Assembly (NCBI RefSeq): GCF_013033965.1
Contig: NZ_WQFE01000004.1
Coordinates: forward strand, 310,001 to 374,000
Source of the DNA: Ruegeria atlantica
GTDB taxonomy: Bacteria; Pseudomonadota; Alphaproteobacteria; Rhodobacterales; Rhodobacteraceae
DNA: 64,000 nt
Reading direction: 5' to 3'
Shown here: positions 20,495 to 22,252 of the stretch, piece by piece
Position numbering within the stretch: position 1 is the first letter of the stretch
Layout: every line of letters begins with the position of its first letter
The notes under the pieces: model-generated
The model's input: the letters and a program-made list of their open reading frames with translations, nothing else
Database searches by the model: none
What the model was told of the DNA's origin: nothing
Translations under genes and position numbers: made by a program

Positions 20495-21910
20495 TTACAA
20501 ACTCCGCACCCTAGGCCGCCGATACACCCCCGCAGGCCCCACAACCAACTCATGCAGCGCCCAGACCAGCGCATCCACTCGATCCGGCGAGCCCTGCCCC
20601 TCGAACCCGTGCGCGGTCATCTGGCACATCTGCTCCTCCAGCGCGTCCAGTCCGGTCACATGGCTCACCCGCCCCTGCTCGTACAATGCCGCCACAGGCT
20701 CGGCCCGCGCGACCTTGCCGCGGGATGCCCGTACCGCGCGATAAGGGACCAGAGGGTCCACCTGCCGCACGACCTCTTCCACCAGTTGCCCACCCTGATT
20801 GACCTCGGCCACCAGCCGTTCGGCCCCCAATTCGTCCATCGCGTCAATTGCCGCCTGCGCCCAGCCTGCCGGACCAACGCCCTGCACCGTCCGATCCGCC
20901 AACACATAGGCGCGCCATTCTTCGGGCGGCCCCTTCACCTGAGCCCCCACGACCACGATCCCGCAGGCATCCGCATCCGCCCCCGCCGTCACCGCCGGAT
21001 CCAACGCCACCACTATACGGTCCAACTCAGGTACCTTCTCAACTCGCGACGCCTCCAACATCGAACCCGTCCAAAGCGCCCCCTCGGCATCCGACAACAG
21101 CACTCCGTCCAACTCTTGCCGCCCTAGCCGCGTGCCCGCATAGCGCGCGCGCACCTCCTCCAGAAACGACTCCGCCAGATTGGCCCGGTTCGCCTCGGTT
21201 GGCGCATGGGTCTGCGCGGTGGACGGAGAGGCTAGCAGATCCTTCAAAACCTTCACATTGCGCGGCGTGGTCGTCACACAGACCCGCGGCTGATCCCCCA
21301 GCCGCAACGCAAATTGCAACATATCCCAGGTCTCGCTGGCCTTCTTCCACTTGGCCAACTCATCGACCCAGGCGGCATCGAATTGAGGGCCGCGCAGCCC
21401 TTCGGGATCATGCGCCGAAAACGCCTGCGCCTCGGCACCGTTGGGCCATACCAGTTTCCGCTCTGACGCCTTCCACACAGGTCGCCGATCCGGCGGCGAA
21501 CACTGCAAAATCCCGCTATCGCCAAAGATCATCACATCGCGCACCTGATCAAACGTCTCGCCGACCAAGGCCACCCGACACGCCTCACCACGATCCAACG
21601 GCAAAGACCCTTCAACCATCGACCGTACCCATTCGGCTCCTGCCCGCGTCTTACCGGCCCCACGCCCGCCCATGATCACCCACGACCGCCAATCGCCCTT
21701 GGGCGGCAATTGATGCGGCAACGCCCAGAACTCAAACAGGAAAGGGAGGGCACACAGCCCTCCCTCCCCGATCTCACTCAGAAATCGGTCCCGAACCGCA
21801 GCATCGGCGGAGGCGAGCCAACCTGCACCCGATTTCAAATCGAGCGCGCTCAAGGTCGAGCGCATACCCCCCTTGGGCAATTCCGGCTTGTCTGTGATGT
21901 TGTTCGACAA
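20495..21910 (-). CDS. GTA large terminase subunit (g2-like)
   Basis: A 471-aa DNA-packaging motor. The Walker A motif GGRGAGKT is at residues 81-88, and an acidic Walker B-type region is PQFDAAWVDELAKW. The nuclease domain lies in the C-terminal half (IVVALDPAVTAGADADACGIVVVG with catalytic Asp). The start is TTG at 21910, with GGAGA 6 bases before it; ATG at 21865 is an alternative. The C-terminus is intact, ending 8 bases before the reverse DUF2971 gene. GTA terminases package random host DNA by headful cutting. Confidence 0.95.
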   Translation of the reverse strand: MSNNITDKPELPKGGMRSTLSALDLKSGAGWLASADAAVRDRFLSEIGEGGLCALPFLFEFWALPHQLPPKGDWRSWVIMGGRGAGKTRAGAEWVRSMVEGSLPLDRGEACRVALVGETFDQVRDVMIFGDSGILQCSPPDRRPVWKASERKLVWPNGAEAQAFSAHDPEGLRGPQFDAAWVDELAKWKKASETWDMLQFALRLGDQPRVCVTTTPRNVKVLKDLLASPSTAQTHAPTEANRANLAESFLEEVRARYAGTRLGRQELDGVLLSDAEGALWTGSMLEASRVEKVPELDRIVVALDPAVTAGADADACGIVVVGAQVKGPPEEWRAYVLADRTVQGVGPAGWAQAAIDAMDELGAERLVAEVNQGGQLVEEVVRQVDPLVPYRAVRASRGKVARAEPVAALYEQGRVSHVTGLDALEEQMCQMTAHGFEGQGSPDRVDALVWALHELVVGPAGVYRRPRVRSL

Positions 21911-22118
21911 AGCTTGTCTCCACTTTCTGACAACTTCGGATCAGCCCCTCTAACTGCCCGAGTTGCTTGCCTGTACCGGCAAGATCTGCATCCTCCCCGG
22001 CTCCGATCTGCCTGCGCAATTCTTCCGCTGCTTGGCGCAGACCGCGAATGGATGTCTCAAGCGACTGCAAAAGTTCCGCCGTCTGGGACATCCGCTCTTC
22101 CGGGGTAATCAAAGTCAT
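21774..22118 (-). CDS. GTA small terminase-like protein (g1-like)
   Basis: A 114-aa protein, first of the cluster, mostly helical (SQTAELLQSLETSIRGLRQAAEELRRQIGAG, KQLGQLEGLIRSCQKVE). It corresponds to RcGTA g1, described as the small terminase subunit. It overlaps terL by 137 bases, unusually long for this cluster, so its last 45 residues (Arg/Cys-rich) are encoded inside terL and may not be conserved. ATG 22118 is used; ATG 22091 is an alternative start. Confidence 0.82.
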   Translation of the reverse strand: MTLITPEERMSQTAELLQSLETSIRGLRQAAEELRRQIGAGEDADLAGTGKQLGQLEGLIRSCQKVETSFVEQHHRQAGIAQGGYALDLERARFEIGCRLARLRRCCGSGPISE

Positions 22119-22132
22119 GTTTGCCTGTTACC

Positions 22133-22216
22133 TCATGCGTGAGTTTTCTCCGCACGAGAGAAACGAAAAAACGGCCACCGGGTTGTCCCGGGGCCGTTGC
22201 CCACTTCTTCTAGCAT
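22133..22216 (-). CDS. Possible 27-codon leaderless leader ORF before the GTA genes
   Basis: ATG at 22216 lies 8 bases after the -10 hexamer of the promoter at 22224-22252, so the predicted transcript would begin at or next to this ATG. The frame stays open through the terminator hairpin, whose T-run encodes Phe-Phe, and ends TGA at 22133, 15 bases before g1. One Trp and three Phe codons cluster over the 3' arm and T-run. Ribosome position could decide whether the hairpin forms. Coding is unproven. Confidence 0.35.
   Translation of the reverse strand: MLEEVGNGPGTTRWPFFRFSRAEKTHA
22166..22198 (-). terminator. Intrinsic terminator between the GTA promoter and g1 (possible attenuator)
   Basis: On the minus strand AACGGCC-CCGGG pairs with CCCGG-(T)-GGCCGTT, a 12-bp stem with one bulge and a 4-base ACAA loop, followed directly by a six-T run. 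It lies about 20-50 bases after the predicted transcription start and about 48 bases before the g1 ATG. It therefore either ends a tiny RNA or attenuates the GTA operon. Confidence 0.75.
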
Positions 22217-22223
22217 GACACAA

Positions 22224-22252
22224 TTTATACGAGATTAAGTGCGCGAAGTCAA
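22224..22252 (-). promoter_or_regulatory. Strong sigma70-type promoter pointing into the GTA cluster
   Basis: On the minus strand TTGACT (22252-22247), a 17-base spacer and TATAAA (22229-22224) make a near-consensus housekeeping promoter. The first coding region downstream in this direction is the GTA g1 gene about 100 bases away. No other promoter of comparable quality was seen between it and g1. Confidence 0.65.

Follow-up and report, generated by a model that had tools for sequence, protein, structure and literature searches.

Gene transfer agents (GTAs) are virus-like particles, made here by a group of marine and phototrophic bacteria. The GTA cluster of Ruegeria atlantica raises the question of how its structural genes come to be transcribed, when the promoter in front of them meets an intrinsic terminator before the first gene, g1. 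The cluster lies on the minus strand of the window, the whole stretch of 64,000 nucleotides that was analysed, and its elements are listed in Table 1. Direct reading located the promoter, the hairpin, the ATG and g1 all where a sequence-only reading had placed them, and direct reading together with folding confirmed the order of TTGACT-N17-TATAAA, hairpin and six T ahead of g1. The hairpin begins about 20 nt past the predicted transcription start, ahead of g1, and its GC-rich stem with a U-tract directly behind it is that expected of an intrinsic terminator. Past the large terminase, Pfam matches revealed a portal, a capsid and a GTA TIM-barrel protein, and these genes, following g1 and the large terminase, indicate an RcGTA-type cluster, in which the product of g1 is TerS (PMC9638019). 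A promoter running into an intrinsic terminator before g1 suggests premature termination that is relieved by a factor.

Table 1. Elements of the GTA leader and the first genes behind it, with positions in the window
Feature	Position	Strand	Basis or remark
Direct repeats GTTGCG x2, 11 bp apart	22276-22271 and 22265-22260	-	5' of the -35 element; candidate activator site
-35 element TTGACT	22252-22247	-	TTGAC nearly invariant in 47 diverse leaders
Promoter spacer, 17 nt between TTGACT and TATAAA		-	Direct reading
CG..C within the promoter spacer	22239..22243	-	Candidate GafA C-domain site
-10 element TATAAA	22229-22224	-	Family form is a weakly conserved TA.A
Initially transcribed motif CATGCTAGAAGAAGTGGGC (family consensus CAWGCTRGAAGAAGTGGGC)	22199..22217	-	Predicted start near 22216
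Leader ORF of 27 codons, TGA overlapping the GAGG Shine-Dalgarno site	ATG 22216-22214	-	Direct reading
Predicted intrinsic terminator, 11-12 bp stem with one bulged U and six T; hairpin AACGGCCCCGGGACAACCCGGUGGCCGUU	22166..22198 (hairpin 22198-22170, T-run 22171-22166)	-	Fold, conservation and covariation
Second hairpin CUCGUGCGGAGAAAACUCACGCAUGAG, overlapping the Shine-Dalgarno site	22132..22158	-	Fold; invariant or nearly so in the genus
Probable Shine-Dalgarno site GAGG of g1	22131..22134	-	Sequence
g1, small terminase by position and RcGTA literature	21774..22118	-	ATG at 22118
g2, large terminase	21910-20495		Pfam; overlaps g1

Within the single genome the signal was modest. RNAfold recovered the hairpin in the 54-nt leader (centroid -22.9 and MFE -24.1 kcal/mol), with a z of -3.1 and an equally good fold in 1 of 200 shuffles, while the entire 102-nt leader folded with a z of -5.5. 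A simple promoter and terminator scan of the region listed neither the leader promoter nor the leader terminator, owing to the absent T6 in TATAAA and the bulge in the stem, and the 16 terminator-like sites that it did find were at chance level (15.2 expected). The start motif was the sole match with no more than one mismatch across the 4.67-Mb genome, and no further copies of the leader were found in that genome. The statistics of one genome are unremarkable, and the case therefore rests on conservation.

Among same-genus relatives, g1 was present in the window genome and in 35 of the 36 genomes searched; in the exception (G011), the leader model still found a weak leader (2.4e-4). The 30 aligned same-genus leaders were 87% identical, with TTGAC, CATGCTAG and most of CGTGCGGA..GCATGAG invariant and the hairpin nearly so, leaving too little change for a covariation test inside the genus. 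The GTTGCG tandem repeats were kept in these 30 leaders, not obviously across the family, and are a possible site for the N-terminal domain of GafA. In four same-genus genomes (L010, L025, L027 and L030) the g1 match contained one in-frame TAG, and in another (G016) g1 appeared as two separate matches; decay of g1 or a shorter g1 is possible in these cases.

The wider family provided the variation needed for such a test. A large-terminase search found the GTA cluster in 259 of 296 family genomes, and upstream regions were taken from 130 genera, 120 of which matched the leader profile at E<0.05. In 108 of these 120 leader-positive genera, a hairpin reaching dG <= -15 and followed by a T-tract stood between the promoter and the first structural gene. 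In the controls, such a structure occurred in 17 of 120 windows taken upstream, in 2 of 120 taken downstream and in 14 of 360 dinucleotide shuffles. The distance from TTGAC to the start motif was 34 or 35 nt in 104 of the 120 leaders, and most stems finished 44-58 nt after the beginning of this motif, whose own conservation is slightly inflated because it helped to set the anchor. With a covariance model, the leader was found in 233 of 293 genomes of an order-level draw, mostly as a single copy; all genomes listed in this draw belong to the window's own family.

When 90 leaders were aligned by sequence only, the terminator positions were paired in 88% of cells, against 76% in shuffles and 33-61% with slid partners. 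Compensatory changes on both sides occurred in 11 of 12 pairs (127 cells, 48 expected), and none of 500 shuffles reached the covariation score. The analysis was repeated on 47 leaders including named species with the same outcome; the stem pairs covary in both sets, as the sequence-only reading had asked of the leader across Rhodobacterales. RNAalifold on a MAFFT alignment gave only 4 inner pairs, and pair counts on the named structure were used instead. The T-rich positions directly after the stem were near invariant in the 47 leaders. An outer stem that extends the hairpin by 9 bp in single folds (AGAAGUGGG/UUCGUUUCU) is not claimed: it was paired in 81.0% of cells as compared to 79.2% in shuffles, with fewer pairs showing both-side changes than the shuffled mean. 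The stretch of the second hairpin, which pairs as CUCGUGC...GCAUGAG, reached z < -1.5 in 43% of 105 family leaders, and this hairpin may control translation of g1.

The layout extends to the named species of the family. The leader matched in 80 of 80 loci surrounding portal genes like that of R. capsulatus (Rhodobacter, Sinirhodobacter, Thioclava, Paracoccus, Phaeovulum, Gemmobacter and others), and the hairpin was visible by eye in nearly all of them. Rhodobacter capsulatus is the model GTA producer, and in strain DSM 1710, counting back from the g1 ATG, the -35 element lies at 129 bp, the start motif at 95 bp, the hairpin at 76 bp and the T-tract at 51-46 bp; the hairpin is AAGCGCAACGG-GAAA-CCGTTTGCGCTT (fold z -4.0). 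A promoter meeting an intrinsic terminator before g1, as proposed from the R. atlantica sequence, is thus supported by conservation with covariation and by its presence in this species. The position of the R. capsulatus leader can be set beside published binding data, in which the probe pGTA2 (76-125 bp upstream of g1) was the sole one of five bound by GafA in EMSAs (Fogg 2019, PMC6363796), and the C-domain of GafA bound on the pGTA2 fragment, with specific binding of an N-terminal fragment to the flanks on both sides (Sherlock and Fogg 2022, PMC9638019). The span of pGTA2 comprises the spacer, the -10 element and the start motif and stops on the first base of the hairpin, so that the terminator lies directly downstream of the bound probe. 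A term search in the running text of open-access papers found no leader terminator or hairpin described for RcGTA, and a search of an open-access library gave no paper on R. capsulatus small RNAs that includes the GTA leader.

The promoter spacer and the first transcribed bases are also conserved. In the 47 leaders, the C, G and C of the spacer CG..C were present in 43, 47 and 46 leaders, respectively, at positions that sigma70 promoters leave free. Their location matches that of the Caulobacter GafZ-binding element (ZBE), found between the -35 and -10 elements of the GTA promoter that GafZ targets (PMC11150451), and by analogy CG..C is a candidate site for the C-domain of GafA. The first transcribed bases, C-A-x-G-C-T-R-G, were near invariant in the same leaders, and the start motif was the most conserved block of the transcribed leader. 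Its CAWGCT has A2 and T6 in common with a -10-like pause element, and this resemblance by sequence would fit a sigma-dependent pause site. The exact GTA start motif was also seen on five IMG/VR 'viral' contigs (L032-L036), which are probably GTA clusters filed as viruses.

Further analyses connected the leader with GafA, a DUF6456 protein (PMC9638019). The window genome encodes one GafA (G000:C23:270436-270843, E 1.1e-62), and GafA (DUF6456, PF20057) was found in 270 of 296 family genomes. Upstream of the gafA gene of the window genome is a CtrA-type box, TTAAC-N6-GTAAC (L255 732-747), of a form that Fogg described and that is also reported in other Rhodobacterales. Over the 128 genera having a GafA match, leader score and GafA (PF20057) score were correlated (Spearman 0.61), and the correlation was 0.59 once large-terminase rank was removed (partial), although it may in part reflect shared decay of the whole GTA. 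Leader and GafA were lost jointly: the terminator was found in 97 of 107 genomes with a strong GafA and in 9 of 21 with a weak one. Ten genomes had a strong GafA and no strong terminator; in L047 the promoter and terminator are lost and GafA is intact, and L154 and L157 are further exceptions. Weak or split DUF6456 matches together with degenerate GTA leaders were observed in L057, L062, L105 and L156, which are candidates for loss of GTA regulation while the large terminase stays.

The explanation that we consider best, and likely to be correct, is Q-like promoter-proximal antitermination by GafA at the GTA leader, with control of initiation possibly acting too. A sigma70-type promoter with a good -35 element would fire toward the GTA genes, and RNA polymerase would halt at the intrinsic terminator about 50 nt downstream, releasing an RNA of about 50 nt. 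Once GafA is produced, its C-terminal part (GafZ-like, DUF6456) would bind the promoter spacer and the start region and would then move onto the paused or early elongating polymerase, and the polymerase bearing GafA would read through the terminator, transcribing g1 and the remainder of the ~14-kb cluster. Use of the terminator in cells, its relief by GafA and pausing at CAWGCT are all predictions. We give an even chance to the broader proposal that the GTA of Rhodobacterales is turned on and off mainly at elongation, with GafA a processive antiterminator loaded via the spacer and the pause-like start motif of a promoter that, in ordinary cells, runs and terminates with a ~50-nt RNA, in the manner of phage late genes.

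That GafA acts only at initiation, as an activator or sigma-like factor via omega, and that the hairpin is a leaky or weak terminator that only reduces basal read-through, or a stable 5' structure of the mRNA, appears unlikely. Such a role would agree with the published RcGTA model, which has GafA binding to the omega subunit as well as to the promoter (PMC9638019), with the weak -10 element of many genera, and with Caulobacter GafY, which activates initiation together with IHF; however, a stable 5' hairpin has no need of a T-tract, yet the T-tract is near invariant, the hairpin keeps a fixed distance from the start, and the -35 element is near consensus whereas that of Caulobacter is degenerate. 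GafA also binds other promoters, such as those of gafA itself and tspA, and its binding at the GTA promoter therefore need not mean antitermination. Control of initiation and antitermination by GafA can both be true together. It is improbable that the terminated RNA of about 50 nt is itself the product, as a trans-acting small RNA sharing the GTA promoter. The unit from promoter to terminator is strong, and its 5' segment outside the stem, the unpaired AWGCTRGAAGAAGTGGGC, shows high conservation, but conservation reaches the untranscribed spacer DNA (CG..C), the unit keeps its place 5' of the GTA genes and is single copy in most genomes, and the leader matches no Rfam family.

Insulating terminators are common ahead of tightly controlled operons, and the hairpin could on these grounds shield the GTA cluster from upstream transcription, with the working promoter further downstream; the position of the terminator ~20 nt 3' of a conserved promoter makes this very improbable. 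The same conclusion is reached from the RNA-seq start of the R. capsulatus GTA operon, which maps into the probe holding the leader promoter (PMC6363796) and also disfavours the suggestion of the sequence-only reading that the leader is a separate small RNA gene and the GTA has another promoter. Classical attenuation through the translating 27-codon leader ORF is hardly credible. The ORF had been put forward as leaderless and its translation as a means of relieving termination; it is open in the window, with its start codon at the predicted +1, but it is not conserved across 109 genera. The position of its ATG holds ATG in 56 of these, AAG in 38, AGG in 6, ACG in 4 and other codons elsewhere, so that the start codon is missing in at least 48 of the 109 genera, where AAG, ACG or AGG stands in its place. 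In genera that do have a start codon, in-frame length varies between 4 and 134 codons, and the frame is altered by indels within one genus. These data revealed no conserved translated leader ORF like that of a leader-peptide attenuator, and the ORF was rejected as a leader peptide.

For antitermination by GafA, the leader offers a concrete cis element. The published model for the switching of the archetypal GTA by GafA is initiation via omega, and work on Caulobacter only speculates on antitermination; a covarying terminator ~20 nt past the start, shared by R. capsulatus and around a hundred further genera and conserved immediately 3' of the GafA site, provides the cis element that the idea of GafA antitermination was missing. 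It suggests that cells turn on the production of GTA particles by allowing RNA polymerase through a stop signal, and GafA probably helps it past the leader terminator. In addition, the leader offers a signature by which to recognise, from sequence, the GTA clusters that GafA still controls.

Beyond the family, a class-wide model search returned mostly partial hairpin matches, judged to be chance, with the exception of one convincing leader at L268, in a genome of another alphaproteobacterial family, where TTGACA, CACACTCGGAGGAGTG and a terminator precede a large terminase of 47% identity. The similar promoter, start motif and terminator of this locus indicate that the layout may predate Rhodobacterales. 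In other families, units of promoter plus terminator ahead of TerL (3 forward, 0 reverse) are suggestive only; related layouts were suggested at L285/L286, L305, L311 and L314, and none was seen at most non-family loci.

Among known systems, leader-peptide attenuators and riboswitches likewise place a leader terminator ahead of an operon, but the GTA leader is without a conserved ORF and has only ~19 nt before the hairpin, which is too short for an aptamer. The likeness to lambda Q at pR'-tR', Q21 and AlpA lies in a candidate loading element embedded in the promoter, predicted early promoter-proximal events, a terminator ahead of the late genes and, by analogy, processive readthrough of a virion gene operon. 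Lambda tR' lies further from the start than the GTA terminator. No sequence or structural relation between GafZ and Q or AlpA has been reported (PMC11150451). R. capsulatus RcGTA with GafA shares the orthologous operon, promoter, start site and regulator and differs in its published model, in which initiation is activated through omega (PMC9638019). In Caulobacter, GafZ, which is homologous to the C-domain of GafA, is a demonstrated antiterminator that requires a site located between the -35 and -10 elements (Tran and Le 2024, PMC11150451), and the GTA promoter is its only target; the same authors raised the possibility that GafA might possess unrecognised antitermination activity. The CcGTA of Caulobacter crescentus resembles the family leader in its GTA promoter and in a regulator site between -35 and -10, for which the family leader has the candidate CG..C, and GafZ carries polymerase past terminators, as is predicted for GafA; it differs in a degenerate -35 element, a start codon at +251, a long leader and a terminator of repeat type that follows the first gene, in place of the simple hairpin and U-tract ~20 nt past the start and the conserved initially transcribed motif of the family leader.
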